From Rhodococcus zopfii NBRC 100606 = JCM 9919 (GTDB lineage Bacteria; Actinomycetota; Actinomycetes; Mycobacteriales; Mycobacteriaceae): a stretch of 64,000 bases of DNA. This document shows positions 24,276 to 47,527 of the stretch, piece after piece. How positions within the stretch are numbered: the stretch's first letter is position 1; the number at the start of each line of letters is the position of its first letter. The stretch spans positions 124,001-188,000 of the forward strand of contig NZ_BCXI01000007.1 in the NCBI RefSeq assembly GCF_001895025.1. The letters are read 5' to 3'. The notes under the pieces were generated by a model. It saw only the letters and a program-made list of their open reading frames with translations. It searched no databases and was not told the origin of the DNA. The position numbers and the translations under genes were made by a program.

Positions 24276-24343
24276 TGCGCACACCTCTCGGTAGCGGTGA
24301 CGGGGACGGTCGAGTGCGGGGTACTCGACCACGAGAGAACATA

Positions 24344-24451: not shown

Positions 24452-27400
24452 GTGCCCGCACGCCCGGCGACTCCGGCTCTGCCGCTCACACGAGCCCAGT
24501 CGGGCGTATGGTTCGCGCAGCAGCTGGCCCCCGACAACCCGATCTTCAACACGTCCGAATGCATCGAGCTGCGCGGCGACATCGACCTCGCCGCCGCAGT
24601 GCAGGCCGTCCGCCGCGCCGCCGACGAATCCGAAGTACTCGTGGCCGGTTTCGGGACGCCGGCCGACGGTACGGTCGTCCAGTATCCGGGCGCCCGCACC
24701 CTCGCCGAGCCGCCGATCGTGGACCTGCGCGCCGAGACGGACCCCTGGCGGGTCGCCCAGGACTGGATGAACCGCGACCTCGCGCGTGTCATCGACCCCG
24801 TCGCCGATCTGTGCGTGCGCGCGGCCGTGCTGCACCTGGCCGACGACCGTGTCGTGCTGTACCTGTGCGGTCACCACCTCGTGCTCGACGCCTACGGTTT
24901 CGGATTGTTCAACCGGCGCATCGCCGAGCACTACACCGCGCTGGTCACCGGCGCGGAGGCACCCACCGTGCGCTTCACGCCCGTCGAACCGGTGGTCCGC
25001 GAGGAACAGGACTACCGCGACACCGTGGCGTTCGCCTCCGACCGCGACTTCTGGGCCGGGTATCTCGCCGGGATCGAGGAGGCGGTGAGCCTGCGGCCGG
25101 GCCCCGGGGGCATCGCCCGCCGCTCGCGCGCGGTGCGCTTCACCCTCGACGCCGAGCAGCAGCGCGCGCTCGCCGCGCTCGGCGGGACGGTCCGGGGCAC
25201 GTGGGGCGACGCGGTAACCGCGCTCGTCGCCGCTTACCTGCGCGGCGCCACCGGGCACGAGGACCTCACCGTCGGCTTCCCGGTGATGAACCGGCTCGGA
25301 AGCGCGGCACTCAACGTGCCGATGTCCGCGGTCAACGTCGTCCCGCTACGCCTGCATCCCACCGCGGCGGACACACTGTCCACGCTCGTCGGCCAGGTTC
25401 GCGACTCGATCGCGTTGTGCCGCAGTCACTACCGCTACCGCGGTGAGGACATTCAGCGAGACCTGCGTCTGCCCACCGGTTCGCGTGGTGTCATCGGCCC
25501 ATCCGTCAACGTCAAGCCGTTCGGGGACGTGTTGCGCTTCGGGCAGATCCGCGGCGCCGTGCACTCGATCGCCCGCGGACCGCTCCAGGACTTCATGATC
25601 ACGGTCCGGCCGCTGGACGAGAGCGCAGGCCTCGAGGTGTTCGTCGACGGCGACGCCGACGTCTACACCGACGACGATCTGCGGCTCCACGCCTCGCGCC
25701 TCGAGCGGTTGTTCGCAACCGTCGCAGATGTCGGGTACGACACCCCGCTCGCGCGCGTGCAGGTTCTCGCCGACGACGAGCGGGACCGGATCCTGCGTGA
25801 GTGGGCCGGTCCGGCGCGGACCGCCGTCGACCCGCAGCTGACGATCCTCGACCTGCTGCACCGGCAGGTGGCCGCAACCCCCGACCGGCCCGCCGTCGCC
25901 GACGCCGGCACCACTCTGACCTTCGCGCAGTTCTCGTCGCGCGTGAACAGTCTCGCCCGGCGGCTGATCGCACACCGCGGCATCGACGGAACCGAACGGC
26001 GGATCGCGATCGCGGTGCCCCGCACGGTCGACGCGCTCGTCGCGATCTTCGCGGTCCTCGAATCCGGCGCGGCCTACGTGCCGCTCGACGTCGACCAACC
26101 CCTCGAACGGCTGTCCCGCGTGCTCGCCGACGCCGCACCCACCCGCGTGCTGACCACCGCCGGCACCGACGAACGAATCGCCTCGATTCCGAATGCGCCC
26201 GAACGGATCCGGCTGGACGACCCGGACAGGGCGGAGCTACCCGACGCGCCGCTCACCGACGCCGAGCGCGGGGTGCGGATGACCCTCGACTCCATCGCGT
26301 ACGTCATCCACACCTCCGGATCCACCGGACGGCCCAAGGGTGTGCTGGTGCCGCACCGTGGCCTGGTCAACCTGTTCCACAGTCACCGTGACCAGGTGTA
26401 CTCGCGCGCCGCACGCGAATCCGGCCGCGAGCACCTGCACGTCGGCCACGCCTGGTCGTTCGCGTTCGACGCCTCCTGGCAACCGCAGCTGTGGATGCTC
26501 GCCGGCCACACCGTGCACATCGCCGACGAGATCGCCCAGCGCGACGCGGGTCTGCTCGCCGCGCGTGCCCGGCGCGAGGACTGGGACTTCGTCGAACTCT
26601 CGCCGGCGCAGCTCGAGCAGATCGTCGACGACGAGCTGTTCCCGGCCGGCACCGTCCCGACCGTCGGATTCGGCGGCGACGCGGTGACCGAACGGCTGTG
26701 GCAGGGACTGCGGGCCCGGTCCGGCGCCGCGTTCAACTTCTACGGGCCGACCGAATGCACCGTCGACTCGCTCGTCGCGGACGTCCACGACACCGACGGA
26801 CCCGTCGTGGGGCGACCGGTCGCGAACCTGCGCGCCCACCTCCTCGACAGCGGTCTCGCGCCGGTTCCGCCGGGTGTCGAGGGCGAGCTGTTCCTGTCCG
26901 GTCCCGGCGTGGTCCGCGGATATCTGGACGCCCCGGCCGCCACCGCGACGCGCTTCGTCGCGAATCCGTTCGCGGGCTCGGACCCGGCCCACACGCGGCT
27001 GTACCGCACCGGTGACCGCGGCCTGTGGACCGAGGACGGGCGCATCGTGTACCGCGGCCGCGGCGACAACCAGGTCAAGGTTCGCGGATTCCGCGTCGAG
27101 CTCGGCGAGGTCGACGCCGCACTGCTGCGCCTGCCCGGTGTCGCGCGGGCCGCGACGGTCGTGCGCACCGACAAGTCCGGAATCGCGCAGCTCGTCGCGT
27201 ATCTCGTCGGCGACGGTGTGCCGGAACCGGCCGACGCGCGCACCCGGCTCACCGAGTGGCTGCCCGGCTACATGGTGCCGGCCGCGGTCGTCGTCCTCGA
27301 CGAGATGCCGCTGACCTCCAACGGCAAGCTCGATCGCCGGGCACTGCCCGAACCCGATTTCGCGGCGCTCGTGTCGTCGCGAGCCCCGGAAACCGAACTC

Positions 27401-30400
27401 GAACGCGCGCTGTGCGACATCTATGCCGGGATTCTCGGACTCGACACCGTCGGCGCCGACGACGACTTCTTCGCGCTCGGAGGGCATTCCCTGTCCGCCG
27501 CGAAACTGCTCGCCCGGATCCGCAACGAGCTCGGCGTGGAACTGACCATCCGTACCGTCTTCGATCACCCCGTGGTCGCGGACCTGGCGTCCGAGTGCGC
27601 CGCCGCCGCCGACGGCACCGGCAACCGGCCGCCGCTCGTCCCGCAGCGCCGCGACGGCCTCGCGCCGCTGTCCCACGCGCAGCAGCGACTCTGGTTCCTG
27701 TTCCGCCTGGAAGGGCCGAGCCCCACCTACAACGTGCCGGTGACGGTCCGGCTGCACGGGCACCTCGACCACGATGCGCTGCGCCGGGCCGTCGGCGACG
27801 TGCTGACCCGGCACGAGAGCCTGCGCACCGTCCTCGTCGAACACGACGGCGTCGGCATGCAGCGGGTGCTCGGCGCCCCCGGTGCGCCGGGCGGCTCGGA
27901 GGTGCCTTTCGCGGTCGTGCCGGTCGCCCCGGACGCCCTCGACGACGAGCTGCTGGCGCAGGCCCGGCACGCGTTCGACCTCGAACATGAAGTGCCGCTG
28001 CGTATCCGGCTGCTGACGATCGGCCCGGATCACAGCGTGCTGCTGCTGCTCGCCCACCACATCGCAAGTGACGAGCTGTCGACGCCGCTTCTCATGCGCG
28101 ACCTCGGAGGGTTCTACGCCGAGCGCACCGGCGGCGCGTCGTACGCGCCGGAACCGCTGCCCGTGCAGTACGCGGACTTCGCGATGTGGCAGCGCGATCT
28201 GCTCGGCGACCCCGGCGACGAGAACAGCCGCGCGGCACGGCAGCTGGAGTTCTGGCGCAACGAACTCGCGGGCCTGCCCACGGAACTCGACCTCCCCACC
28301 GACCGGCCGCGGCCGGCGGTCGCGTCGTACGCCGGCGGCAGCGTCGAGTACCCGGTTCCCGCGCACGTGGCCGACGCGGTGCGCGCGGCCGGCCGCGACA
28401 CCGGCACCACGATGTTCATGATGGTCCATGCCGCGGTCGCACTCGCGTTGTCGCACAGCGGCGCCGGTGAGGACGTTCCGCTGGGGTCACCGACGGCGGG
28501 CCGGCCCGCGCCCGAACTCGACGACCTCGTCGGATTCTTCGTCAACATGGTGGTCCTGCGCACCGACCTGTCCGGGGATCCCACCGTGCGGGAACTGCTC
28601 ACCCGCATCAGGAACACCGATGTCACCGCGTACGCGCATCAGGACGTGTCGTTCGATCGGGTGGTCGAGGCGGTCAACCCCGAACGCAGCGCCGCCCGGC
28701 ATCCGTTGTTCCAGGTGATGGTCCAGTACCAGACCCCGCCCAGGCTCACCGCCTTCGCCGACCTCGCGCCGGCGGTGTCGTTCGTCGCCAACGACACCGC
28801 GATGTTCGACCTGACCTTCGACGTCATCGATGCGCCCGACGGAAGCCTGCGTGTGCGTGTCGAATACGCGGGGGAGCTGTTCGACGCCTCGACCGCCGCC
28901 GCGTTCGCCGCGCGCGTCGGGCGGGCGTTCGCCGCGCTCACCGGCGATCCGGACCGTCGGCTGTCCCGGCTCGATCTGCTCGCCGACGACGAACGCGCCT
29001 GGCTGCGCGCGGGTCGTCCCGGCGTGGCCGCCGCACGGCCTGCCGGCGTCCCGGACACGCTCCACGGCCTGTTCGCGCGGTCGCTCGCGGCCACACCCCA
29101 CGAGCTCGCGCTGGTGTCCCCGTCCGTGTCGGCGACCTTCGCCGAGCTCGACACGTGGTCCAACCGCATCGCGCGGTACCTCACCGGTCGGGGTGTCGGA
29201 GCCGAATCCGTCGTGGCCCTGCAGCTTCCGCGCGACGGAGTAATGGTCGCCGCGATCATCGGGGTCTGGAAGGCCGGCGGTGCGTACCTCGCCGTCGACC
29301 CGAACTATCCGGCCGAGCGGATCGAGTACATGCTGCGCGACGCGGCGGTGACCGTCGTCCTCGACCCGGCCGCGATCGCGGACGCCGAGCGGTACGCGGG
29401 GGATCCGCTCATCGACGCGGACCTGCGGTCGCCGGCACGCACCGGCAACGCCGCCTACGTGGTGTACACCTCCGGCTCGACCGGTGCTCCCAAGGGTGTG
29501 GTGGTGCCGCATCGCGGCGCGGTGAACCTGTGGGAGACCGTGCGCACCCGCACCTTCGGTGATCCCGCCGTCACCCGACGGTCGGTGCTGCTGAGCTACA
29601 CCTTCACCTTCGACTCGTCGATCGACCCGCTGCTGGCGATGCTCGGCGGCCACACCGTCCACGTCCTCGCCGAGGAGCTGCTCGCCGACGCCGAAGCGAT
29701 CGTCGCGTATGTGCGCGACCACCGCATCGACGGGCTCGACTGCGGACCGGTGCTCATGACGCAGCTCGTCGCGCACGGACTGCTCGATCCCGCTGCGGCG
29801 CACCGCCCGGCGGTCGTCGCCCTGGGCGGCGAGGCGGTCCCGGCGGAACTGTGGACGCAGCTGGCGACCGCGCCGGATCTCCACGCGGTCAACATGTACG
29901 GGCCCACCGAATGCACCGTCGACTCCGCCGGATCCGTCGTGACCACCGCGACCGGCCCGCACATCGGCGTTCCCATCGACGGCGGGCGCGCCCACGTCCT
30001 CGACCGCTACCTGCGCCCGGTACCGCCCGGTGTGCCCGGTGAACTGTACGTCGGCGGCCCGCACGTCACCCGCGGGTACCTGGGCCGGCCCGGCATGAGC
30101 GCGGGCAGGTTCGTCGCCGACCCGTTCGGGGAGCCGGGCGGGCGGCTGTACCGCACCGGCGACGTGGTGCGCTGGGCGGGAACCGATCCGGTGCTCGAAT
30201 ATCTCGGTCGCAGCGACGATCAAGTGAAGATCCGGGGATTCCGCGTCGAACTCGGTGAGATCGAGTCCGTGCTCGCCGCGTACCCGGCGGTGGCAACGGC
30301 CGCGGTGATCGCCCGCGAGGACGATCCCGGTCGCAGACGACTCGTGGGTTACGTGGTTGCGCAGGCCGATACCGGCGACCCCGGCGCGTCCCTCGATATC

Positions 30401-32239
30401 GAGGCGCTGCGTGCGCACGTCGCCGAGCGGTTGCCCGAGCACATGGTGCCCGCCGCGATCGTCGTGCTCGAGGCGTTCCCTGTCACCGCCAACGGCAAGG
30501 TCGATCGCAAGGCGCTGCCGGCGCCGGTGTTCGTCGTGACCGCGGCCGGACGGCAGCCCGCGGACGACATCGAACTCCGGTTGTGCGCGGTGATCGCCGG
30601 GGTGCTCGGCCTCGACACGGTCGGTCCCGACGACGATTTCTTCGCGCTCGGGGGCGACTCGATCGTCTCGATCCAGTTGGTGTCCAAGGCCCGTGCGGCC
30701 GGGTTGCGATTCACGGCCCGGCACGTGTTCGAGCACCGGACTGCGGCGGGACTGCGGCGGGTCGCCGCCGTCGACGCCGCAACCGGTGACGTGGACGCCG
30801 CGGCGGCGCTCGGTACGGTGCCTGCCACCCCGATCGTGCACGACATGCTCGACCGCGGCGGCCCGTACAAGCGGTACGCGCAGTCCCGGTTGCTGCGGAC
30901 CCCGGCGGGCCTGACGGCCGAGGCGCTCACCGGTGCCGTGCAGGCGCTGCTCGATGTGCACGACGCGCTGCGGTCGGTGTTCGACGCGCACGCCCGCACG
31001 CTCGAGGTGCTGCCGGTCGGTGCGGTCCGCGCCGGCGAGGTGGTCTCCCGTATCGACATCGCCGGCGTGGACGACCCGTCGGCGCTGATCGTCGCCGCGA
31101 CGCAGGAGGCGTATGCGGGTCTCGACCCGGAATCCGGTGTGCTCGTGCGGGTGGTGCTCTTCGACGCGGGACCGGGCACGGAGGGACGTGTCCTGATCGC
31201 CGTGCACCATCTCGTCGTCGACGGTGTGTCCTGGCGGATCCTGGTGCCCGACCTTGCCGGCGCGGCCGCCGGTACGGCACCCGCCCGGTCCGGGACACCG
31301 CTGCGTGTCTGGGCGGCAAGGCTTCTCGACGCGGTCTCCGGGCGGCGGGCCGAGGCGCCGCTGTGGCGGCGGATGACCGCGGCCCACGGCCGGGTCCGCG
31401 TGGCCTCGCGCGCGATCGATCCGGGCCGGGACACGATGTCGGGCACCGCCGTGGTGCACGTCGAGGTTCCGTCGACGATCACCGAGGCGTTGCTCACCAC
31501 CGTTCCGGATCGGTTCCACGCCCGGATCGACGACGTGCTGCTCACCGCCCTCGCGCTGGCGACCGCCCGGTCCCGCGGGGCGGGAGCGCTCGTCGTCGAC
31601 CTGGAAGGGCACGGACGCGAGGAGCAGGTGGTCGCCGGCGCCGATCTGTCGCGCACGGTCGGCTGGTTCACGTCGCTGTATCCGGTGCGCCTGGACGTGA
31701 CCGGACTCGACGTCGCCCGGGCCTTCTCCGGTGCCGGCGAGGCCGGCGAGGCGCTCAAGCGGGTCAAGGAACAGCTTCGCGAGATTCCCGACAACGGAAT
31801 CGGATTCGGCATGCTTCGGCACCTCGACGCAGAAGGGGGGTCCGAATTCGCGGCCGCGGTGCCGTCGGAGGTCGGGTTCAACTACCTGGGCCGGTTCACG
31901 CTGGGCGAGACCGAGGGCGGGCCGTGGTCCGGTGCGCCGGAGTCGTCGGCGCTGGGCGGTGCCGTCGAGGTCGACATGCCGGTCTCGCATGCCGTCGAGA
32001 TCGGGGTGCTCACCGAGGACACGCCCGGTGGGCCGGTCCTGCGCGGCACCTTCGGATACAGCCCGGGGCTCGTGCCGGAGCAGGTCGTCGCGGAGCTGGC
32101 CGAGAACTGGATCGGAGCGCTCGGTGCGCTCGCCGGTCACGCGTCGGCCGACGACGCGGGGGGTTTCACCCCGTCCGATTTGACTTTGGGCGACCTGGAT
32201 CAGTCCGAGATCGACGAGTTCTCACTCGAATTCGGGTGA
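24452..32239 (+). CDS. Siderophore NRPS 1, modules 1-2 (C-A-T-C-A-T-E)
   Basis: This 2595-residue NRPS has the following domains. C1 (about 10-450) has motif HHLVLDA at 141-147. A1 (about 460-965) has [10 protein letters not shown] near 625. T1 has LGGHS, Ser near 1013. C2 (about 1070-1500) has HHIASDE near 1202. A2 (about 1535-2020) and T2 follow, the latter with LGGDS, Ser near 2070. E2 (about 2127-2565) has [10 protein letters not shown] and EGHGREEQ. The acidic tail resembles a docking segment ([13 protein letters not shown]). C1 is placed to receive dihydroxybenzoate from the free carrier protein. My reading of the A-domain pockets is DAQEGGFVDK (A1) and DSDDAGMVDK (A2). Acidic residues at position 278 suggest polar or basic side chains; identities are not certain. 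The GTG start follows GAAGAAGGGG and lies downstream of an iron box. Confidence 0.95.
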
Positions 32240-32264
32240 ATCACGCGCTTGACTGTGCAGAAGT

Positions 32265-32283
32265 TTCGGTTAGCCTAACCAAA
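32265..32283 (+). promoter_or_regulatory. IdeR/DtxR-like iron box, siderophore-binding protein gene
   Basis: TTCGGTTAGCCTAACCAAA matches 17 of 19 positions of the recalled IdeR consensus (S allowed at the centre). It lies 53 bases upstream of the lipoprotein start and 25 bases after the NRPS1 stop, so the downstream genes have their own iron-controlled promoter. Confidence 0.88.
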
Positions 32284-32335
32284 CATGCGTGGGCGGAGGT
32301 CGCCCCGCGAACGAGACGATTGTGGGAGAAACGTG

Positions 32336-33352
32336 ATGCGGTTCCTTGAACGCCGCGCGGCGCGGGGTGCTCTGGTCCTCGGTGCGGCCGCCGTGCTGAC
32401 CGCCGGACTGGCGGCATGCGGCAGCGGCAGCGGCGACAGCACCGGCACCGAGGTCGCCCTGCGCAGCTTCGAGGCGCAGAACGGCACCGTCGAGATCCCG
32501 GTCGATCCGCAGCGCATCGTCGCGTGCGGCTACGCGGCCTTCCCGCTGATCCAGGCCGGCGCCGACCTCGCCGCGGTGTGCGAGTGGAACCGCGAGCTCG
32601 AGAACATGGACGCCGAAACCCTCGCCGCCTACGAGGCGCTGCCGAAGGTCGCGCCGGACGGCGCGGTCTCCGAACTCGACTACGAGGCCATCACGGCAGC
32701 CCAGCCGGACCTGATCATCATGGGTGTCCCGGCGCGGGTTCAGGAAGAAATCGACATGGCCACGCTCGAGGCGCTCGCGCCGGTCGTGTTCCTCGGCCCC
32801 AGCAATCCCGGCCAGTGGCGTGAACTCGGCGAGCAGTACGCCGACGCCGCCGGCGTCACCGACAGCTACGGCGAATTCAAGGGCGACTACGAGGCGCGTG
32901 CCGCCGAGATCGCCCAGAAGTACGCCGGTACCCTCGGTGGCCTGAAGTTCGCGGGCCTGTGCAGCGTGTGCGGCACCGAGCCCGGCGAGTTCTTCCGCGA
33001 GTACGCGTCGTCGTACACCACCAACCTGTTCGACGACCTCGGCTTCACCTTCCCCGGTGAGCCCGCCGATCCCGAAGACGTCCACGGCGAATACCTGTCG
33101 CTCGAACAGCTGCCCCAGAACCTCGCGGACGCCGACGTGATCGTCTACGGCCTCGAACCCGACGGTTCGATCACCCCCGAACTGCAGTCCGTGCTCGACT
33201 CGCCGCTGTGGCAGAACCTGCCGGCGGTCAAGGCAGGCAACATCGTCGGCATCCAGCACGGCAACGCCGCGACCTACGAGACGGCGCTGCTCGCGCTCGA
33301 CTCGATCGACGCCGGCCTCGAGAAACTTCCGGCGAACCGGCCGCCGCAGTGA
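32336..33352 (+). CDS. Iron-siderophore ABC transporter substrate-binding lipoprotein
   Basis: The 338-residue protein has a lipoprotein signal (MRFLERRAARGALVLG, lipobox LAAC with Cys28). Its type III periplasmic-binding fold is of the FecB/FepB kind: VEIPVDPQRIVACGY, a long central helix, and LADADVIVYGLE, PLWQNLPAVKAGNIVGI near the end. It should capture the ferric siderophore at the outer face of the membrane. No permease or ATPase genes lie beside it, so it must share a translocator encoded elsewhere. Four cysteines beyond the lipidated one (64, 82, 209, 212, the last two as CSVC) are unusual for this family. The ATG at 32336 follows GGGAGAA. Confidence 0.92.
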   Translation: MRFLERRAARGALVLGAAAVLTAGLAACGSGSGDSTGTEVALRSFEAQNGTVEIPVDPQRIVACGYAAFPLIQAGADLAAVCEWNRELENMDAETLAAYEALPKVAPDGAVSELDYEAITAAQPDLIIMGVPARVQEEIDMATLEALAPVVFLGPSNPGQWRELGEQYADAAGVTDSYGEFKGDYEARAAEIAQKYAGTLGGLKFAGLCSVCGTEPGEFFREYASSYTTNLFDDLGFTFPGEPADPEDVHGEYLSLEQLPQNLADADVIVYGLEPDGSITPELQSVLDSPLWQNLPAVKAGNIVGIQHGNAATYETALLALDSIDAGLEKLPANRPPQ

Positions 33353-33379
33353 TTCGAACCGACCGGCGGTAACTCCACG

Positions 33380-33423
33380 ACGGGCACGGCCCCCGAGCTA
33401 CTCGACTCGAGGGCCGTGCCCGT
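33380..33423 (+). terminator. Strong hairpin between binding-protein gene and NRPS2
   Basis: A perfect 13-bp stem (arms 33380-33392 and 33411-33423) encloses an 18-base loop. It lies 27 bases after the lipoprotein stop. It may terminate most transcripts and leave lower readthrough into the 13.8-kb NRPS gene, since no iron box was seen between 33424 and 33460. Confidence 0.6.
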
Positions 33424-33459
33424 TGCGTTCGAAACGTTCCTCCGTCCACGAAAGCAGCC

Positions 33460-36400
33460 ATGACCCGCCCCACCGCGCTCGAAGACATCGTTCCGCTCTC
33501 GCCGCTGCAGCAGGGCCTGCTCTACCTGAGCACGGTCGCGTCCCCGGACCAGGCCACCCGCGAGGCCGGCCCCGCTGAGCCCGATGCCTATACCGTGCAG
33601 TCGGTGCTGCGGCTGACCGGCCGTGTGGACGAGAACCGGATGCGGGCGTCGGCGCAGGCGCTGCTGGACCGGCACACGGCTCTGCGCACCTGCTTCCGGC
33701 CGCGCAAGGACGGCCGGACAGCCGGGCTCGTCATCAAGGGACTCGAAGTGCTTTGGCGCAGTATCGATCTGAGTGTGCGCCCTGGTCTGGACGCCGAGCG
33801 AGCGCTGCAGGAACTGCTGGACACCGATCTGCGGGACTGGTTCGATCTCACACAGCCGCCGCTGGTGCGCTGGCTGTTCGTCCGTGTCGGCGGTGACGAC
33901 GTACGCCTCGTGCTCACCGCCCACCACATCGTCGTCGACGGCTGGTCCACACCGATTCTGGTCCGCGAGCTGCTGGAGATCTACGCGGCCGGTGGAACGG
34001 CTACGACGTTGAGGGCGGTGCGCCCGTACCGGGACTACCTGGCCTGGCTGGACCGGCAGGACCGCGATGCCGCACGGACCCTCTGGCGCGAGAGCCTGGC
34101 CGGCGTGACCGAACCGTGCCTGGTCGCACCCCCGGGATCCACCCGCGCCGGGCAGCCGTGCGACGTCCTCGACGTCGCTGTGCCCACCGGCCTTCTCGGC
34201 CGGCTCACCACCCTGACCCGGCACGCCGGGGTCACCCTCAACACGGTGCTGCAGACGGCCTGGGCGCTGCTGCTGTCGGGTCTGACCGGCCGCGACGACC
34301 TCGTGTTCGGGGCAGTCGTTTCCGGGCGCCCGCCGGAACTCGCCGGCGTCGAATCGATGGTCGGCCTGTTCGTCAACACGGTGCCGGTCCGGGTCGCCCT
34401 CGACCCGAACGCCACCGTCGCCGAACTGCTGCGCACCGTCCAATTCGAGCAGTCGCGCACGGTCGACCACCAGTATCTGGGTCTTTCGGATATGCAGCGC
34501 GACAGCGGAATCGGCGAACTTTTCGACACCCTCACCGTGTTCGAGAGCTACCCGGTCGACCGTGATGCCCTCGACCGCGCGCAGCGCGACGGCGGCATCC
34601 GCATCGCCGAGGTCGGCGGCCGCGACGCGACGAACTATCCGCTCGTGCTCACCGCCGGCGTCTCGGACACCCTCGTCGTCAAGCTCGACTATCGTCCCGC
34701 GCTGTTCACCGCCGCGGACGCGGAGGCGCTCGGAACGCGTCTCGTCACGATCCTCGCGGCGCTGGCGGCGGCCCCGCAGACGCGGGTCGCCGCGCTCGCG
34801 GCGCTGCCCGCAGCCGAGCGCGACCGTGTCCTCGGGCCGTGGTCCGGGGCGGCCCCTGCCCGGGCGACGGCCGGCACCGTCGCCGACGTGCTCGCCGGCC
34901 GGTTCCACGCGCGCGCCGACGAAATCGCGGTGGTGTGTACCGACGAACGCGTGAGCTTCGCGCGCCTGGGCTCCGCGTCCGCGCAGCTGGCCCGGCTGCT
35001 CGTCGCGCACGGTGTCGGGCCCGACGACCGGGTCGGGCTCGCCCTGCCGCGTACCGCGTCGATGATCGAGGCGATCAGCGCGGTGCTCTGTGCCGGCGGA
35101 GCCTACCTTCCGCTCGACCCGTCCTATCCCGCGGATCGTCTGCGGCACATGATCGCCGACGCCGCGCCTCGGGTCGTGATGACCACCGCCGCCGTGGCCG
35201 CCGCGCTGGGCGAGGTCCTCGACGGCGTCGATGTGCTGGTGCTCGACGACCCTGCGGTGCAGTCTGCCCGCGACGCGCTCGCGGCCGGCCCGCTCACCGA
35301 CGCGGACCGGCTCGCCCCGCTGCGGCCCGGTCACGCCGCCTACGTCATCTACACCTCCGGTTCGACCGGAACCCCCAAGGGGGTCGTCGTCTCGCACGCG
35401 AACCTCGCCGATCTACATGCCGCGCAACGCGAATCGATGATGACCGGCGGAATCCGCGACCCGCGTGACGGGCAGTGGCAGGTGCTGTTGACCTATCCGT
35501 TCGCATTCGACTCCGCCGTCGCCGCGCTGACCTGGCTGTTCGAGGGGCACACCCTGCACGTGCTCGGCGACGAGTACCGCACCGATGTGCAGTTCATCGT
35601 CGACTACGTGCGCGGGCACCGCATCGACTACGTCGACGCCGTGCCCGTGCTGATGAACCGCCTGCTCGATGCGGGACTGCTCGACGAGCACGCCCACCGG
35701 CCCGCCAAGGTCACGGTCGGCGGCGAAGCGGTCGCCACCGCGCTGTGGCAGCGGCTCGCCCGTTCCGGCATCGAGGCGTTCAACTGCTACGGGCCCACCG
35801 AATGCACCGTCGACGCCACGTACGCGCGCATCTCGGGCGAAACCGTCACGATCGGCAGGCCCACCCCCGGCACCCGGCTGTACGTCCTCGACAGCTGGCT
35901 GCGGCCCACTCCGCCCGGCGTCGCGGGCGAACTCCACATCGCCGGAAACGGAGTCACGCGAGGCTATCTCGGCCGAGCCGCGCTCACCGCAGAACGGTTC
36001 GTCGCCGACCCCTTCGGCCCGGCCGGTGGACGCATGTACCGCACCGGCGACATCGTCCGGTTCCGGTCGGACGGCGATCTCGAGTACGTCGGCCGCGACG
36101 ACCACCAGATCAAGATCCGTGGCTTCCGCGTCGAACTCGGCGAGATCGAAGCAGCGCTCGACGCACTGCCGGGGGTGCGTGCGTCCATCGTCGTCGCCCA
36201 CACCGACGGCGGCGGGATCACCCGGCTCGTCGGCTATGTCACCGGAACCGGAATCGACAACGCCTCCGCCCGCGCCGGGCTCGCGCGGTTGCTGCCCGAC
36301 TACATGGTGCCCGCGCTCGTCGTCGCCCTCGACGTGCTTCCGTTGACGGCGAACGGCAAGGTGGACCGGAAGGCGCTGCCGGAACCAGACTTCGGTGACC

Positions 36401-39400
36401 TGGCCGGCTCCGATGCGGCACGCACCGGGACCGAGCAGGCGCTGTGCACGGCGATCGCCGACGTACTCGGGCTCGACCGTGTCGGCGTCGACGACGACTT
36501 CTTCACCCTCGGTGGTGATTCCATCGTCTCCATCCAGCTCGTCGCGCGGTTGCGTGCCGAGGGACTGCAGGTTGGTGCGCGGCAGGTGTTCGAGTTGCGG
36601 ACGCCCGCGGCCATCGCCGCCGCGTGCGATGCGCCGGACCCCGCGCCGACCCGCGAGACCGCCGCGGCCATCGGGGACGTGCCGCTCACGCCGATCGTGC
36701 GTGAGACCCTTGCCCACTCCGGATCCGCACTGCGGAGATTCTCCCAGTCGCGGCTGCTCATCGCCCCGGTCGGACTGGACGAGGCGCACCTCGTCGCCGG
36801 AGTCGGTGAGCTGCTCGCCGCCCACCACATGCTGCGGTCGCGCTTCACGGTCACCGACGGCACCGCCTCCTGGACGGTCCCCGAAACGGCACCGGACCCG
36901 GCGGCACTGGTACGGCGCATCGACGCGGCCGGTCTCGACGACGACCGGTGGCGCGCGGTGTTCGAACAGGCCCGCGACCGCGCCCTCGACGCGCTCGACC
37001 CCGCCGCCGGAGTGATGGTGCAGGTCGTGTTCTTCGACCGCGGCCCGGCCGTCGCCGGACGGGTCTTCGTGGTCGTGCACCATCTCGTCGTCGACGGGGT
37101 GTCCTGGCGCATCATCGGCCCCGACCTCGCCGCGGCCGTCGGGCGGGCCCGCCGCGGCGAGCCCGCCGCGGTGGAGCCCGCGGTCACCTCGTTCCGCGAC
37201 TGGGCGACGGGACTGGCCGCGGCGGCCGGTTCGGAACGGGTCGAGGCGTCGTGGCCCGCCTGGCAGCGCGCGATCGACGCCGGTGCGGGCGGCGACGAAG
37301 CCGTGCTCGGCAGCCGACCGCTCGACCCGGCCCGGGACACCGTCGCGACGTCGGCGCCGGTCGAGGTGCGGGTGCCCGCCGACGTGACCGACCGCATCCT
37401 GACCACCGTTCCCGCCGCGCTGCGCGCCGGAGTCCCGGACGTGCTGCTCACCGCCCTCGCGGTCGCGGTGACGTCCGTGCGCGGCGGCTCGTCCCTGCGG
37501 GTGCACCTCGAGGGCCACGGGCGGGAGGAACAGATCGTCCCGGGCGTGGACCTGTCGCGGACGGTGGGCTGGTTCACCTCGCTCTACCCGGTGGTGCTCG
37601 ACCTGGGCGGCGACGGCCGCGGCGTGAGGGCCGGTGCCCCGCTCCTCCGGGCGCTGGCGCACGTCAGGGAATCACTGCGCACGGTGGCCGACAACGGAAT
37701 CGGATTCGGTATCCTGCGTCACCTCGCGCCGGACACCGCGGACCGGTTCGCCGGATACCGCGCGCCCGAGGTGATGTTCAACTATCTGGGACGCCTGACC
37801 CTGGGTGAGTCGCCGTCCGAATCCTGGTCCGGTGCACCCGAAGTCGGATCGCTCGGCGGATCGGTGGACGAATCCGCGCCACTCGACCACGTGCTGTACG
37901 TCGACGCGGTCACCGACGACGGCCCGGACGGAGCGGTCCTGAGCGCCGAATTCCGTTTCGCGACAGGACTGCTCGACGAATCGACGGTCCGGCTCGTCGC
38001 CGGCCGATGGATCGAGATCCTCGAGACGATCGCTGCGGCCGGGCCGGAGACGGTCGCTCCGATCCCGTCGGAGGTGACCGCAACCGGAATCGGTGTCGAC
38101 GAGCTGCTCGTCCTCGACACCGAGGTGTCCGGCGGCATCGTGGACGTGGTACCGCTGACACCGCTGCAGCGCGGCATGTTCTTCCTGTCCGGACTCGACA
38201 CCGACGGCGTCGACGTCTACACGATGCAGTCGGTGCTCGATCTCGACGGGAACCTCGACCTCGAGGTGCTGCGCCGCAGCATCGAACGGCTCGTCGCACG
38301 GCATGCCGTGCTGCGCACCGGCTTCCGGGTATCGTCGTCGGGAACACCGATCGGTGTCGTGGCGCGTGCCGTGCCGTGCCCGTTCGAGGTGGTCGACCTG
38401 TCCACCACCACGGATCCGGCCGCCCGCGCCCGGGAACTCGCCGACGAGGACCGGGTCCGGCGGTTCGACACCGGTGCGGCGCCGCTCGTGCGGTTCACCG
38501 CGGCGATCGTCTCGCCGACCCGCACCCGACTGGTGTTCACCGCGCACCACCTGCTGCTCGACGGCTGGTCGACACCGCTGCTGGTGCAGGAACTGCTGCA
38601 GATCTACGCCGCCGGTGGCGACACGTCGACTCTCCCGCCGGTCGTGCCGTTCACGGACTACCTCAGGTGGCTGGACCGCCGGGACACCGAGGACGGACTG
38701 CGGGCATGGATCGACGCGCTCGGCGGCGTCACCGAACCGACACTCGTCGCGCCCGCCGGCACCTCCCTGCAGGCCGAACTGCCCGCCGAGGTCCCGGTGC
38801 CGGTCCCCGCCGGTCTGACCGACCGCATCCGCGTCCGCGGCCGCGAACTGGGCGTCACCACCAACACGATCGTCCAGACCGCGTGGGGTCTGCTGCTCGG
38901 CTCGATCCTCGGCCGCGACGATGTCGTGTTCGGTGCCGTCGTCTCCGGTCGAGTCCCCGAGGTCGCGGGCGCCGAATCGATGATCGGACCGTTCATCAAC
39001 ACCGTGCCCGTGCGTGTGCGGACCGACCCCCGCGAGGCCGTACCGGCCCTGCTGCAGCGCGTGCAGACCGAACAGAACCGGCTCATGGACCGCCAGTACG
39101 TCGGTCTCTCCGACATCCAGCGCGCCGTCGGCATCGGCGAACTGTTCGACACCCTCATGGTGTTCGAGAACTACCCCGTCGACCGGGATGCGCTGGAACG
39201 CGCCCAGAACGACGGCGGGATCCGGGTCGCCGCCATCGCGGGAACGGACGCGACCAACTACCCGCTCGCGCTGACCGCGGCCCTGACCGACCGCCTCGTG
39301 CTGGCCCTCGACCACCAGCGCGCCGTGTTCGACCACCGGCAGGTCGAGGCACTGGGTGATCGTCTCGTCCGGATCCTCGACGCCCTCGCGACCGGTACCG

Positions 39401-42400
39401 GCACGGTCGCGTCCGTGCCGGTGCTGTCCGCCGAGGACCGCACTCGTCTGCTCGGCGAGTGGGCCGAAGCGGCCCCGGCGCCGCGGACCGGAGCGGAGAC
39501 CGTCGCGGACCTGCTCGCCGCGCAGATCGACCGCACACCCGACGCCGTCGCGGTCGTCTCCGGCGACACGACGCTGACGTTCGCCGAACTGGGGGAGCGG
39601 TCGGCGCGGCTGGCCCGGCTGCTCGTCGCGTCCGGTGTCGGACCGGAATGCGTCGTGGGGCTCGCGCTGCCACGGTCGGAACAGATGATCGTGGCGATCG
39701 TGGCGGTGCTCCGCGCGGGTGGCGCCTACGTGCCGATGGACCCGACCTATCCGGCGGACCGGCTCGCGCACATGGTGTCCGATTCCCGGCCCGCGGTGAT
39801 CGTCTCGGCCACCGGGGTGGCGGCGCCGTGCGTGAGCCTCGCGCTCGACGATCCCGCGGTGCGTGATGCGCTCGCCGCGCTGCCGTCCACTCCGGTCACC
39901 GACAGCGATCGGATCGCTCCGCTACGGTCCGGCAACACCGCCTACGTCATCTACACCTCCGGTTCGACCGGACTGCCCAAGGGCGTCGCGGTCACGCACG
40001 CGAACTTGCTGGACTTGCATGCGGCGCAACGTGACACCGTGATGCGGGGGGAGTCGGACCGGCCGTGGCGGGTGCTGCTGACCTACCCCTTCGCGTTCGA
40101 CTCGTCGATCGCGGCACTGACGTGGATGTTCGAAGGCCACGCCGTCCACATTCTCGACGACGAGCAGCGCACCGATCCGGCGGCCGTCGTCGACTACGTG
40201 CGCCGGCACGGCATCGACCATGTCGACACCGTGCCGGTGCTCATGACCCGGCTGCTCGACGCGGGCCTGCTCGACGGCGAGTCGGCACCGTCGAAGATCA
40301 CCGTCGGTGGCGAGGCCGTCGCTCCGGCGTTGTGGCGGCGGCTCGCCGCGTCCGGTGCGGAGGCGTACAACTTCTACGGCCCGACCGAGAACACCGTGGA
40401 CGCCGCGTTCGCGCGCATCGCGGGGGACTCGGTGCGGATCGGCGGTCCGACCCCGGGATCGTCGCTGTACGTGCTCGACGGTTGGCTGCGGCCCGTCGCG
40501 CCCGGTGTCGCCGGGGAACTGTACGTCGCCGGTGAGGGCGTGACCCGGGGGTACCTGCGGCGTCCCGGCCTGACTTCCGGTCGTTTCGTTCCGAACCCGT
40601 TCACGGGCAACGGTACCCGGATGTACCGCACCGGCGACGTGGTGCGCTGGACCGACGCGGGTGCGCTCGAGTACGTCGGCCGCGACGACGATCAGGTCAA
40701 GATCCGCGGCTACCGGGTCGAGCTCGGCGAGGTCGAGGCGGCGCTCGCCGCCGCGACGGGAGGTCGCGATGCCGTGCTCGTCGCCCACACCGATGCCCGT
40801 GCGGTGACCCGCCTCGTCGGGTACGTCGCGGGCGACGACATCGACGGCGTCGTGGTGCGCGCGACCCTGGCCGATCGCCTGCCCGACTACATGGTGCCCG
40901 CCGCGTTGCTGTCCCTGCCGGTGCTGCCGTCGACGCCGAACGGCAAGATCGACCGGAAGGCGCTGCCGGAGCCCGACTTCGCGGCGCTCGTCGGCGCGGG
41001 CGAACCGCGCACCGAGACCGAGACGACGATGACCGCGGCGTTCGCCGAGGCGCTCGGACTCGACCGGGTCGGCATCGAGGACGACTTCTTCGCGCTCGGC
41101 GGCGACTCGATCGTCTCGATCCAGCTCGTGACGCGGCTGCGTGCGTCCGGCATCCGGGTCACCGCGCGGCAGGTGTTCGAACATCGCACCGCCGAACGGC
41201 TCGCCGCGCTCGTCGACGCGGCGCCGGAACCGGTCGCCGACCCGGACACGGTCGTCGTGCCCGCGCACGGGGACGTTCCCGTCACGCCGATCGTCGCGCA
41301 GACCCTCGCCGACGGCGGCGATTTGGACAGCTTCACCCAGGCGCGGCTGCTGGTCGCGCCGGCCGGCCTGACCGTCGACGTTCTGGATCGGGCGGTCGCC
41401 GCGATCGTGCGGGCCCATCCGGTCCTCGCATCGCGGTTCGAGGTCGACGGCGACGAGATCCGCTGGCACGTACCGGAGAGCCCCGTTTCCGTCCCGGTGC
41501 GCCGGGTCGACGCGATCGGGGTGGGCGGCCAGGACTGGCACCGGCTGTTCGCCGTCGAACGGGCCGCTGCGGTGGACCGGATCGATCCGGCGGCCGGCAC
41601 CATGATGCAGACGGTGTTCTTCGACGCGGGTCCCGATGCCCCCGGCCGGGTGCTGCTCATGATCAATCACCTGGCCGTCGACGGGGTCTCGTGGCGCATC
41701 CTCGTTCCGGAACTCGCCGACGCGGTCGCACGGGTGCGGGCCGGATCCGATCCGGAGGTGCCGGCCGAGGAGACATCCTTCCGCGGCTGGGCGACCGGCC
41801 TGTCGGAAGTGGCTGCGGCGGAATCGATCACCGCGTCCTGGCCGGCCTGGGAAGCGGCACGCGCAGCGCGCGAGCCGAATCTCGGTGCACGGCCGCTGGA
41901 CCCCGCTCTCGACACCGTGTCCACGTCACGATCGGTGCAGGTGCGCGTCCCGTCGCCGGTCACGGAGATCGTGCTGACCCGGCTGCCCGCAGTCTTCGGC
42001 GCCGGTGTCACCGACGTCCTGCTCACGGCACTGGTCCTCGCCGTGGCCTCGGTGCGCGGCGGCGAGACCGTGCGCGTCGACCTGGAAGGGCACGGGCGCG
42101 AGGAGCATCTCGTTCCCGGCGCCGACCTGACGCGCACCGTGGGATGGTTCACCTCGCTGTACCCGCTGGCCGTGGATCTGACGGGTATCGACATCGACAC
42201 GGCCCTCGACGGCGGCGCGGCTGCCGGGCACGCCCTGCGCGCCGTCAAGCAGACGGCGCGGGCGGTCCGCGACAACGGCCTCGGGTTCGGGGTGCTGCGC
42301 TGGATGAACCCCGCGGCCACCGAGCGATTCGACGGCTACACCGCACCCGAGGTGATGTTCAACTACCTCGGACGCATGACCCTGGGCGACACCGCCGCCG

Positions 42401-45400
42401 GCGCGTGGTCGGCGGCACCGGAAGCAGGCGCGCTCGGCGGCACGGTCGATCCGTCGTCCCCGCTCGACCACGTCCTCGACGTCAACGCGGTCACGGAGGA
42501 CACCGAGCGCGGACCCGAACTCGAAGGCACCTTCGACGCGGCCGCCGGCATCGTCGACGCCGCCACGCTCGAGACGATCGCGCACCGCTGGGTGCGGGTC
42601 CTCACCGCCCTGGCCGGACTTGCGGACCCGACCGCGAACGGGCTGGTGCCGGCCGACCTCACGAAGCGGGACCTGCCGCTGCAGGACCTGATCGGCCTCG
42701 AGGCCACCGCGACCGGACCGGTCGAGGACGTCGTACCGCTCACCCCGTTGCAGCGCGGGATGTTCTACCTGTCGGGTCTCGACGACGACGGCGTCGACGT
42801 CTACACGATGCAGACCGTGCTCGACCTCGACGGCGAACTCGACACCGCGACGCTGCGCCGTTCGGCGCGGGCACTGGTCGACCGGCACGCGGTGCTGCGC
42901 ACGGGATACCGGACCGCGGGCTCCGGCGAACCCGTCGGTGTCGTGCTGCGCCACGCCGACCCCGAGTGGATCGAGCTGGACCTGGCCGGGAACCCGGATC
43001 CGGCCGGACATGCAGTCGAAATCGTTGCACGCGAACGTGATCGACGATTCGATACGGCGGTGGCGCCGCTGGTGCGATTCGCGGCGGTGAAGCTCGCGCC
43101 GACTCGGATCCGGCTGGTCGTCACGATGCACCATCTCGTGGCGGACGGCTGGTCGATGCCGCTGCTCATGCAGGAACTGCTGCAGATCTACGCGGCCGGT
43201 GGCGACGCCGCGGCGCTGCCCCCGGTCACGCCGTTCACCGACTACCTCGAATGGCTCGCCGGTCGGGACGCCGACGCCGGCATGCGGGTGTGGTGCAGCG
43301 CCCTCGACGGTTTCGACGAGCCCACCCGCATCGCCCCGGCCGGGTCGTCGCTGCGGGCCGAGTTGCCGGGCGAGATCACGGTGCCGGTGTCCGGCGAGCT
43401 GACCGCGCGGATCCGCGCGGCCGGCCGCGCCTGGGGCGTCACCGTCAACACCGTGGTGCAGACCGCCTGGGGTGTGCTGCTCGGGGCATTGACCGGCCGC
43501 ACCGACGTCGTCTTCGGTGCCGTCGTCTCCGGCCGGGCCCCCGACGTGCCCGGTGTCGAGACGATGGTCGGCCTGTTCATCAACACCGTCCCGGTCCGGG
43601 TGCGTCTGGACGCCGCCGAAACCACCGCGGAGCTGCTCTCGCGCATCCAGGCCGAACAGAACCGGGTGATGGACCACCAGCACGTCGGACTGCCCGACGT
43701 GCAGCGGGCGGTGGGCCTCGGCGAACTGTTCGACACGCTGCTCGTGTTCGAGAACTATCCCGTCGACCGGGACGCGCTCGAGCAGGCCCAGCGCGACGGC
43801 GACGTGCGCGTGGCGTCGGTCGACGGCACCGACGCGACCAACTACCCGCTCGTGCTCGTCGCGGGCCTGCAGGACACCCTCCACCTGGGCCTCGAATATC
43901 AGCGCGCCGTGTTCGGCGACCGCGACGCCGAGGTGCTGGGCGAGCGGCTCGTGCGCATCCTCGACCGGCTCGTCGCGCAACGACCCGGCCCGGTCGCGCA
44001 ACTCGACGTGCTCACCGACAGCGAACGTGCCGGGCTGCTCGACGAGCGGTCGCTGACCTCCCCGGCGCCGTCCACCGGCGCCAGCACCGTCGCGGACCTG
44101 CTGGACACGCAGATCGAGCGCACCCCCGACCGGCCGGCGGTCGTGTCCGGAGACGTCACGCTCACCTTCGCGGAACTGGGACAGCGGTCGACGCGGCTGG
44201 CCCGGCTGCTCATCGCCTCGGGGGTCGGACCGGAGACGGTCGTCGGACTGGCGCTGCCACGCTCGGAGCAGATGATCGTGGCGATCGCCGCGGTGATCCG
44301 CGCGGGCGGTGTGTACGTGCCGATGGACCCGTCGTACCCGGCAGATCGACTGGCGCACATGGTCACCGATGCTCGGCCGCGGGTGATCGTGACCGTCTCG
44401 TCGGTCGTCGGCACGATCACCGGGGTCGCTGCGGGCACCGAACGGGTCGTGCTCGACGATGCCGCGACGGGGGACCGCATCGCATCCCTCCCCGCCACGC
44501 CGGTCACCGACGCCGACCGGCTCGCGCCGCTGCGCCCGGGCAACGGGGCGTACGTGATCTACACCTCCGGATCCACCGGGCTGCCGAAGGGCGTGGCCGT
44601 CACGCATTCGAACCTGCTCAACCTGTTCGACAGCCACCGGGCCGACCTGTACCGGCCGACCGTCACCGCCGCGGGCACCGATTTCGTCGGCGTCGGACAT
44701 GCGTGGTCGTTCGGGTTCGACGCGTCCTGGCAACCGACGCTGTGGCTGCTCGACGGGCACACCGTGCACGTGTTCGACGACGACACGATGCGCGACCCCG
44801 AACGGATGGTCGCATACACCCTCGAGCATCGGCTCGACTTCCTCGAGGTCACCCCGTCGTTCCTGGACCGCATGCTCGCCGCCGGCCTGTACGACGGCGA
44901 ACACCGCCCGGCCAGTGTCGGTTTCGGTGGTGAGGCCGTGAATCCCGCGTCGTGGCGGCGACTGCGCGAGCTCGCCGACGGTCGCGCGTTCAACCTGTAC
45001 GGGCCCACCGAATGCACCGTCGATTCCCTCGTCGGTTCGGTCACCGACGCCGACACCCCGTGCCTCGGTCGCGCGGTGCACGGTGCCGGGGCCTACGTGC
45101 TCGACCCCCTGTTGCGGCCGGTTCCGCTCGGCGTGGCGGGGGAGTTGTACATCTCCGGGGACGGCGTCGCCCGGGGCTACCTCGGGCACCCCGACCTCAC
45201 GTGCGGTCGGTTCCTGGCGAACCCGTTCTCCAGCAACGGAACCCGGATGTACCGCACCGGCGACCTGGTCCGGCGGGTGCCGGGCACCGGCGGCGACACC
45301 GTGCTCGAATTCCTCGGCCGCGGCGACGACCAGATCAAGATCCGCGGCTACCGTGTCGAACTCGGCGAGGTCGAGGCCGCACTGACGGCTGCGGCCGGGG

Positions 45401-47280
45401 TCCGGGATGCCGTCGTCGTCGCGCACACCGACGGTCGCGGTGTCACCCGCCTCGTCGGCTACGTGATACCCGACGGCGATGTGGACCCGGCGGCCGTGCG
45501 CACGGCCGCCGCGGCGCGCCTACCCGACTACATGGTGCCGGCCGCGGTGACGGTGCTCGCCGGGTTCCCCGTCACCGCCAACGGCAAGGTCGACAAGAAA
45601 GCATTGCCCGCACCGGATTTCGCGGCGCTCGTCGGCTCCGCGGAACCGAGCACCCCGACCGAGGCCGCACTCGCGGTCGTCGTCGCCGAGGTGCTCGGAC
45701 TCGACCGGGTCGGTGTCGACGACGACTTCTTCGCGCTCGGCGGAGATTCCATCGTCTCCATCCAGCTGGTGTCGAAGGCGCGGGCCGCGGGCCTGTGGGT
45801 CACCACGCGGCAGGTCATCGAGCTGCGCACCGTCGCGGACCTCGCCGCCGCGGTCGACTCCGCCGACCCTGCCGCGATTCCCGTGGTCGCTGAGGGCGAC
45901 GCCACCGGCGACGTGCCCGTCACCCCGATCGTGTGGGACACCCTCGAACAGGGCACCGGCCTGCGCCGGTTCTCGCAGGCCCGTCTGCTCGTCGCGCCGG
46001 TGGGCCTCACCCTGGACGTGCTGCGCACCGCCGTCGCGGCACTGCTCGGCACACACCACATGCTGCGGTCCAGGCTGGTCGTCGAGGCCGATGGGGCCCC
46101 ACGGTGGACGGTGCCGCTCTCGGAGACCTCCGTCGGCACTCCCGTCCGCCGCGTCGACGCGAGCGCACGGGACGGAGAGAACTGGCTCGAGCTGTTCGCC
46201 TCGGAACGCGAGAATGCTTACACTGCACTCGATCCGGAGAACGGGGTGATGATGCAGGTGGTCTGGTTCGACTTCGGGCCGGACCGCCCCGGTCGCGTGT
46301 TCGTGGCGGTGCACCACCTTGCGGTCGACGGCGTCTCGTGGCGGATCCTCGTGCCGGACCTCGCCGACGCCGTCGAGCAGGCCGCGCGCGGCGAGACCGT
46401 CGCGCTCACCTCCGCCGGCACACCGTTCCGGGTGTGGGCGGCCGGACTGGGTGCCGCCGCCCGGTCCGAACGGATCACCGCGTCGTGGTCGGCGTGGCAG
46501 CCGGCAATCACCGCGGACGAGCCGCAACTGGGGGCGCGCCCGCTGGATCCGGCTCGGGACACCGTCTTCGACACCCGCACGGAACAGGTGCGTCTGCCCG
46601 TCGACGTCACCGAACGCATCCTCGCCACGGGTTCGGTCGAGAACATCCTGCTCGCGGCGCTGACCACGGCCGTGGTGGCCGTGCGCGGAGGTGACGTCGT
46701 GCGCATCGACCTCGAAGGGCACGGACGCGAGGAGCAGGTCGTGCCGGGGGCCGACCTGTCGAGGACCGTCGGCTGGTTCACCTCGCTCTACCCGATCGCG
46801 GTGGACCTGTCGGCCGTCGACGCCGGCACGGCGCCGGCGGACGGTGCGGCGGCCGTGCTGCGTGCCGTGACCGATGCGACAACGGCGCTGCCCGACAACG
46901 GGATCGGCTTCGGGGTGCTGCGCCGTCTGCACCCCGAGGGTGCGCAGCGGTTCGCCGGGTACCGCCGTCCCGCGGTCGTCTTCAACTATCTCGGACGCCT
47001 GACCCTCGGCGACGACGCCGGTGCTCCCTGGTCCGCCGCGCCGGAGGTGGCATCGATCGGCGGCTCCGTCGATCCGTCCACCCCGCTCGACCATGTCCTC
47101 CAGGTCGATGCGATCACCGAGGACACACCGGACGGCCCGGTGCTGGAGTGCGAGTTCGCCGCTGCCGCGGGAGTCGTCGACGGCGAGACCCTCGGCGCGC
47201 TGGCACGGCACTGGGAACGCGCCGTATCGGATCTCGCGGGTGCGTCACCCCACGCCCTCGAACCACCGACACGGCTGTAG
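33460..47280 (+). CDS. Siderophore NRPS 2, modules 3-5, each C-A-T-E, no thioesterase
   Basis: This 4606-residue protein has three complete C-A-T-E modules. Condensation motifs are HHIVVDG (155), HHLLLDG (1696) and HHLVADG (3224). P-loops TSGSTG lie near 630, 2163 and 3700. Carrier serines in LGGDS are at 1021, 2550 and 4097. Epimerization motifs are at 1207 (HHLVVDG), 2736 (NHLAVDG, Asn for the first His) and 4285 (HHLAVDG), each followed by EGHGREE. Pocket readings are DSADTGCVDK (A3), DSADTGFVDK (A4) and DAQEGGLVDK (A5). The N-terminal C domain should accept a D-configured dipeptidyl chain from NRPS1. The protein ends right after the last E domain, with no thioesterase, reductase or terminal C domain. 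The ATG at 33460 is used; the ribosome site is weak. Confidence 0.95.
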
Positions 47281-47295: not shown

Positions 47296-47517
47296 ATGTT
47301 GGATCGCACTACCGTCCTGGCCGACACCGCCCGGATCCTCGAGGTCGAACTCGACGAACTGGACCCGTCGGTGAGCCTGGTCGACCAGGGCCTCGATTCG
47401 GTGCGCCTGATGGCGCTCGTCGAACAGTGGCGCGGCGCCGGCGCGGACATCGATTTCGTGTCGCTGGCCTCCGAACCCGACCTGGAGCAGTGGTGTGCCC
47501 TGCTCGCCGGGCGGTGA
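47296..47517 (+). CDS. Free-standing aryl carrier protein (EntB C-terminal-domain-like)
   Basis: The 73-residue protein matches the carrier domain usually fused to isochorismatase. LVDQGLDSVRLMALVEQWR contains the phosphopantetheine Ser, and GADIDFVSLASEPDLEQW corresponds to the DIDF...W end of EntB. It should carry dihydroxybenzoate from DhbE to the first condensation domain of NRPS1. It starts 15 bases after the NRPS2 stop behind AGAAGGAG and ends ten bases before the exporter gene, so it is part of that operon. Splitting the carrier from DhbB and placing it 27 kb away is the noteworthy arrangement. No phosphopantetheinyl transferase gene was seen in the window. Confidence 0.93.
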   Translation: MLDRTTVLADTARILEVELDELDPSVSLVDQGLDSVRLMALVEQWRGAGADIDFVSLASEPDLEQWCALLAGR

Positions 47518-47527
47518 GCGGAGCACC

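Follow-up and report, generated by a model that had tools for sequence, protein, structure and literature searches.

A nonribosomal peptide synthetase (NRPS) assembly line encoded in a 64,000-nt stretch of the Rhodococcus zopfii genome (the window; G000:C7:124001-188000 of the 6.3 Mb genome G000) ends in an epimerization (E) domain, with no release domain behind it. Comparison with related lines showed that the missing release domain is a conserved trait, as all 22 lines compared, 12 from the genus and 10 from elsewhere in the family, end in an E domain without a thioesterase (TE). The product is probably a mixed catecholate-hydroxamate siderophore. It is tentatively proposed that a terminal N-hydroxyornithine (or N-hydroxylysine) would cyclise on its own thioester and so release the chain, an account whose probability comes near to even without reaching it. 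The original prediction, which had described a catecholate line with no release domain, stood in part: the lack of a cis-acting release domain, the four D residues and the poor candidacy of a nearby S33 hydrolase were upheld, while a product of catecholate type only and the uniqueness of the layout were not.

The line is encoded by NRPS1 (24452..32239, + strand; 2595 aa) and NRPS2 (33460..47280, + strand; 4606 aa). Using Pfam, three Condensation, two AMP-binding and two PP-binding stretches were detected in NRPS1, with six, three and three of these respectively in NRPS2. Purpose-built hidden Markov models (HMMs) resolved the order of condensation (C), adenylation (A), thiolation (T) and E domains as C(starter)-A-T-C-A-T-E for NRPS1 and [C-A-T-E]x3 for NRPS2. 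The terminal module lies at 42733..47178 (+ strand) with its E domain at 45907-47178; the match to this last E domain ends at residue 4573 of 4606 and the stop codon is found at 47278-47280. No TE family was found in NRPS1 or NRPS2 by Pfam, and a TE HMM gave no match over positions 14001-54000 of the window. These searches confirmed the predicted domain order with its stop right after the last E domain, the absence of any cis release domain (TE, reductase or terminal C) and, with four E domains present, the four D residues.

DNA identity among the three A domains of NRPS2 is only 63.5-71.4% and an independent genome (G017) carries the same five modules, and thus the module count is not an assembly artefact. 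A recent tandem duplication of module 3 giving module 4 was also rejected, since the DNA identity of their A domains is no higher than 71.4% and the tree groups module 4 with module 3 of g24 (support 80). In all 12 lines of the genus the NRPS1 protein ends in a common docking motif. In sequence, the first C domain of NRPS2 is closer to the two C domains that come after E domains within NRPS2 (50-52% identity) than to that of module 2 (29%). Given this tail and this type of C domain, NRPS1 most likely feeds NRPS2. The NRPS2 tails of the same 12 lines are short and variable (the G005 frame extends across the start of the aryl carrier protein (ArCP) gene), and NRPS2 looks like the true end of the line, with nothing recognisable docking behind it.

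To place this ending among relatives, the starter C domain was used as query against 301 family genomes drawn from a larger group, of which 66 matched at 1e-60. The ten lines outside the genus at no less than 51% identity were fetched, together with the genus genomes G004, G008 and G015 at 44–46%. The ten family lines, with 51–70% identity in the starter C domain, belong to four other genera, and within the genus the line is carried by 12 of 18 genomes (NRPS1 of G003 is cut by a contig end). The E-ended layout had been regarded as peculiar to the window locus; this was overstated, as it is the rule in every line. NRPS2 has two modules in 17 lines, three in 2 (the window and G017) and a single one in another 2. 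The line thus lengthens and shortens in its middle, with modules 1 and 2 and the terminal module kept constant. The most diverged line (G044; L222, L223; region bases 15827-28128) has its tail split over two proteins, which hold an extra module with the glycine-type code DILQLGMVWK. It should also be noted that G004 and G008 (L058, L075, L068, L084) keep the dhb genes, the exporter and the ArCP with NRPS1 and NRPS2 missing between them, and have another NRPS elsewhere (G004:C169, G008:C1:1082810) with a starter C domain 44-46% identical. The region of G015 breaks off at a contig end.

At the left edge of the window lies the 3′ end (1..144, + strand) of a Lys/Orn N-monooxygenase gene (whole gene G000:C7:122753-124144), followed by the sole MbtH-like protein of the genome (141..380, + strand; PF03621, 104 bits). 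The monooxygenase matches PF13434 with 345.7 bits, the next best match in the genome having 47.4 bits, and was present in 27 of 27 genomes tested, including all those bearing the line. In three of the lines (G082, G066 and G044) it is located within the cluster, adjoining the isochorismatase gene in the dhb block of G082 and G066 and immediately upstream of NRPS1 in G044. This position in relatives is the strongest new evidence for a role of the monooxygenase in the system, and it is because the enzyme belongs to the system that the product is probably of mixed type; the term catecholate alone was incomplete. Upstream of the monooxygenase gene an iron-box-like site with 4-5 mismatches, a level at which there was no chance control, was found in 18 of 18 genus genomes.

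The specificity codes of the A domains were read by alignment at ten positions, which we take to be the usual ones. Across the 22 lines the code was DA[QG]EGGFVDK for module 1, DS[DE]D.G.VDK for module 2 and DSAD.G[CF]VDK for the inner modules, while the terminal code DAQEGGLVDK was identical throughout, including the three-module lines and the most diverged line. A tree built by a quick method placed 21 of the 22 terminal A domains in one clade, with the long-branched sequence of G044 beside it. A further comparison made use of a TE-ended line of the genus (G010-G012) which, from its resemblance, is presumably heterobactin-like. With the putative N-hydroxyornithine A domain of that line as query, the four best A domains of the window genome were all in this cluster and the terminal one ranked first. 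A Glu/Asp pair in such codes goes with ornithine and an Asp/Asp pair with arginine; our best guess is ornithine-type specificity at modules 1 and 5 with arginine-type between them.

Taken as a pathway, DhbC, DhbA and DhbB would make 2,3-dihydroxybenzoate (DHB), which DhbE would load onto the stand-alone ArCP. NRPS1 and then NRPS2 would extend the chain by five residues, of which all but the first would be in the D form, and the last module would carry ornithine (or lysine) N-hydroxylated by the monooxygenase at the left edge. The side-chain hydroxylamine would then attack the thioester on the last T domain and close a ring, which would both free the chain and form the hydroxamate ligand, so that no thioesterase, trans hydrolase or acyltransferase would be needed. 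The acyl partner would be the chain's own terminal thioester because a hydroxamate needs such a partner and no acyltransferase was found. In favour of this account are the constant ending without a TE despite a varying module number, the docking tail seen on NRPS1 but not on NRPS2, the NRPS1-to-NRPS2 hand-off suggested by the C domains, the in-cluster monooxygenase of G082, G066 and G044 with the iron-box-like site upstream of that gene in the genus, and the lack of hydrolase and acyltransferase genes in the G082 and G066 blocks. We infer the identity of the terminal residue, the ring closure and its running without a dedicated enzyme; the ring closure depends on the terminal residue being the hydroxylated one, which the invariant terminal module and the kinship of its A domain to a hydroxyornithine domain support. 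A wider generalisation is rather doubtful, namely that these lines form a conserved class without any release enzyme, in cis or in trans, in which a terminal D-configured N-hydroxy residue would release itself, with off-loading being the formation of the third ligand, and in which length could vary by whole C-A-T-E modules as only the terminal module must stay fixed.

A number of observations weigh against self-release by a terminal hydroxyornithine. The monooxygenase lies outside the fetched cluster stretch in 19 of the 22 lines, being in most genomes either on a separate contig or at a distance of tens of kilobases from these NRPS genes, and as the line-less genomes G004, G008, G011 and G012 have it as well it may serve other lines too. 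It scores higher with MbtG (453 bits), which acts on lysine, than with KtzI (342) or PvdA (302), and the NCBIfam model that it matches best, for a putative histamine N-monooxygenase, gave 185 bits, far short of the cut-off of 700. The terminal code differs from the DMENMGLINK of the heterobactin-like line; its two acidic positions suit a charged amine and the residue could be unmodified ornithine. The code of module 1 is nearly the same as the terminal one, and hydroxyornithine could enter there. Finally, where amychelin and chlorodactyloferrin are described in the passages available, ring closure is credited to an alpha/beta hydrolase (AmcB and DafK respectively).

In the main rival account, a cytosolic hydrolase encoded elsewhere would act in trans, by hydrolysis or by catalysing ring closure, as proposed for AmcB, DafK and KinT. 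This has a substantial probability, although it is somewhat doubtful, and release of this kind is published for amychelin-type lines. According to the parts of the literature available, the last module lacks a TE in amychelin, kasichelin, chlorodactyloferrin and kineochelin, whose C-terminal N-hydroxyornithine is thought to cyclise, with the ring closure of kineochelin being credited to an ArCP-TE protein (KinT). The window line likewise has no TE on its last module and has a pathway N-monooxygenase. However, it ends in an E domain, which the passages on amychelin-type lines do not report for a last module, and no hydrolase comparable to AmcB, DafK or KinT is common to the 22 lines here. As far as the relevant passages show, the kasichelin cluster contains neither a TE nor an AmcB homologue; kasichelin was nevertheless made heterologously and the authors speculate on another enzyme of the cluster (PMC12305651). 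This precedent speaks for self-release, as a cluster with neither a TE nor an AmcB homologue can yield its product in a foreign host, where a contribution by a host hydrolase is possible.

Candidates for such an enzyme were sought throughout the genome and beside the lines. Of 15 PF00975 matches, five fell in frames 1667-7382 aa long (four of these frames include Condensation domains as well), and the other ten were in frames of 269-588 aa, all at 47.6 bits or less. A stand-alone type II thioesterase was rejected as nothing in these shorter frames exceeded that score, and the claimed lack of one nearby was borne out genome-wide, with no convincing stand-alone PF00975 protein. A thioesterase under iron control elsewhere had been suggested as a further search. 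Eight IdeR-type iron boxes with up to three mismatches were found in the whole genome, against none for a reversed control pattern; three sites had up to two mismatches, two of them in the NRPS cluster. The nearest PF00975 match was 9.1 kb from any of the eight boxes, which weighs against a trans hydrolase, as does the lack of a common hydrolase family. The search was not entirely negative, in that one box (G000:C1:70256) has a gene for a MenI/EntH-type hotdog thioesterase (L165:2495-2929) roughly 1 kb away. This protein scored below the cut-offs of those models and was rejected as a release enzyme, being at best suited to proofreading of the ArCP. The box itself (L165), among the three best in the genome, is situated between a gene judged by eye to encode a FecCD-like permease and a 239-aa gene, after which comes the hotdog thioesterase.

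The S33/TAP-like hydrolase (48958..50526, + strand; PF00561/PF08386) is not a conserved part of the locus. It had been judged a poor candidate for its signal peptide, and this judgement was reinforced by a signal-like N-terminus and a patchy distribution: it was found in the fetched stretches of 3 of the 12 genus lines, which end about 4.8 kb after the ArCP so that a more distant copy is possible there, and in none of the 10 family lines. A 268-aa alpha/beta hydrolase (G000:C7:121724-122527) speaks for the rival, as it lies beside the monooxygenase and adjoins the monooxygenase-MbtH pair in 16 of the 18 genus genomes. However, it was rejected as a dedicated enzyme because its distribution is that of a core gene: of 20 selected family genomes that do not carry the line, 15 possess it. 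Where the monooxygenase has its place within the cluster (G082, G066 and G044), the hydrolase gene is hundreds of kilobases off or on another contig, and in G001 and G007 the two genes are also on different contigs. Its best curated matches, below cut-off, are enol-lactonases.

A prolyl oligopeptidase gene (53328-56063; it overlaps a purC-like frame and its true start may be further downstream) also favours a trans hydrolase, being present in the stretches of 11 of the 22 lines. It was likewise rejected as a dedicated enzyme, as it occurs in five genomes without the line (G004, G008, G011, G012 and G015); it is missing from the stretches of 6 of the 10 family lines, and several genus stretches end inside or before the gene. 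A cutinase-like gene (16021-16773) was found beside 4 of the 22 lines, and an alpha/beta-hydrolase-fold gene (6010-7140) falls beyond the limits of the stretches fetched from relatives. Among frames picked by base composition, no hydrolase family was common to the full set of lines. Neither a hydrolase nor an acyltransferase or formyltransferase is encoded between the monooxygenase and the siderophore-interacting protein in G082 and G066.

It is improbable that the terminal E domain has itself been turned into a release catalyst, whether hydrolase or cyclase. It is the sole domain after the last T domain, and in fungal lines terminal condensation-type domains do act as release catalysts. Its sequence is also distinctive: half of the terminal E domains (11 of 22) have Asn or Asp in place of the first His of the HHxxxDG motif, compared with 2 of the 44 internal E domains; a Val just before FNYLG is present in 20 of 22 against 2 of 44, and an Asp after the HVL motif in 22 of 22 against 2 of 44. 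On the other hand, the last E domain retains the residues that we take to be catalytic (second His of HHxxxDG, Glu of EGHGRE, Tyr of FNYLG). Each class of E domain (NRPS1, inner and terminal) has its own residue at both of the other positions, as orthologous groups would, and this is expected without any new function. As the lines are related, the 11 His replacements are not 11 independent events, and the loss may represent relaxed constraint where no downstream C domain checks configuration.

A transfer of the chain to another NRPS elsewhere in the genome is more improbable still. E domains usually feed a downstream C domain and rhodochelin, in the published account as far as available, makes use of three separate loci, but NRPS2 has none of the docking tail kept by NRPS1, and the fetched stretches of relatives show no other conserved NRPS gene next to the line. 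That the line is broken and makes no product, as its lack of a release domain might suggest, is hardly credible, as all 22 lines share this end, the motifs and reading frames are intact and two strong iron boxes are present.

With regard to known systems, the gene content resembles that of the rhequibactin locus (rbt1/iupS) of R. equi, where, in the passages available, DhbCAEB homologues, NRPS genes spanning REQ08140-60, a siderophore-binding protein and MFS transporters occur together (PMC2947987). In the window, too, the genes for DHB formation, the NRPSs, a binding protein and an MFS exporter form one block, and because of this match it is not a new kind of cluster. Those passages of PMC2947987 call IupS dimodular and name only catecholate chemistry, whereas the window line has five modules. 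The lines of genus g10 are of the four-module form, and their layout suggests orthology to R. equi iupS. Beyond rhequibactin, the window line contributes the five-module form, the conserved missing release domain and the link to the N-monooxygenase.

The heterobactin-type line (L070, L086, L071, L087, L072) is fragmentary in G010, and its order, C-A-T-E-C-T-C-A-T-C-A-T-TE, and codes, DADDVGMVDK, glycine type and DMENMGLINK, were taken from G011 and G012. It comes from the same genus and shares with the window line the aryl-acid genes, an ArCP-like protein and an arginine-type code ending in VDK, with dhbA, dhbC, the exporter and the binding protein being common to both in G011 and G012. However, it ends in a TE, found among the genus stretches only in G010-G012, and it carries the DMENMGLINK and glycine-type codes in place of a terminal DAQEGGLVDK. 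Enterobactin and bacillibactin have in common with the window the DHB pathway, a starter C domain and an EntS-like exporter, but their lines end in a TE with trilactone release.

Rhodobactin reportedly contains two catecholates and one hydroxamate. It is the mixed hydroxamate-catecholate siderophore of R. rhodochrous OFS, and the part of a 2020 review available here states that its gene clusters had not been identified (PMC7502451). Rhodobactin is an attractive candidate for the product of a window-type line. A 2021 survey of Rhodococcus NRPSs, said from its title to concern an orphan metabolite, might already report part of this and may bear on rhodobactin. A literature search on terminal epimerization domains and release found none, and the line is not claimed to be unpublished.

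Within the locus, DHB formation is encoded on the − strand upstream of NRPS1 by a DhbC-like isochorismate synthase (23127..24332; PF00425), a DhbA-like dehydrogenase (22360..23121; TIGR04316, 286.8 bits, slightly below the cut-off of 300), a DhbE/EntE-like 2,3-dihydroxybenzoate-AMP ligase (20656..22338; TIGR02275, 739.4 bits, above cut-off) and a DhbB/EntB-like isochorismatase (19959..20684; 241 aa) matching only PF00857. As the isochorismatase has no carrier domain, the 73-aa carrier protein encoded 15 bp after NRPS2 (47296..47517, + strand; PF00550) must be the aryl carrier. Its orthologues, 72-92% identical, are present in 14 other genus genomes, and an ArCP was found in all 10 family stretches. 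The two iron boxes of the cluster, each with 2 mismatches to the consensus, lie between dhbC and NRPS1 (24344..24362, + strand; 0.00 expected by chance at up to three mismatches) and after NRPS1 (32265..32283, + strand). The second precedes a FepB-like siderophore-binding lipoprotein (32285..33352, + strand; PF01497; PRK10957, 37.6 bits, below cut-off) encoded between NRPS1 and NRPS2. Neither this gene nor that of the ArCP figured in the original prediction for the line. An EntS-like MFS siderophore exporter (47495..48781, + strand; NF007792, 513.3 bits, above cut-off) follows the ArCP, and a siderophore-interacting protein (ferric reductase; 50606..51451, − strand; PF04954/PF08021) lies beyond the S33 gene. 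Further upstream, an ABC exporter (17898..19931, + strand; PF00664/PF00005) is by synteny a conserved neighbour within the genus. Upstream of it is a 349-aa frame without a Pfam match (16865-17914), pieces of which recur beside the exporter in relatives. At the other end, in a 1028-aa frame at 57232-60318, the match to a sodium:dicarboxylate symporter is confined to residues 594-983, and its true start is probably far downstream. A scan of a named collection with the MFS exporter as query gave two loci, in R. gordoniae and a Nocardioidaceae metagenome-assembled genome, and in a plasmid search all matches were below 60% identity.

How NRPS lines without a TE release their product is a question even for characterised siderophores, kasichelin being an example in the literature available. 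Here the same ending is found in 22 genomes of different species, whose lines of three, four or five modules have one invariant terminal module in common and form a natural series. The release step thereby becomes open to direct testing on a single small module. For rhequibactin- and rhodobactin-like siderophores, where the literature passages hold no link from gene to structure, the line points to their likely chemistry.

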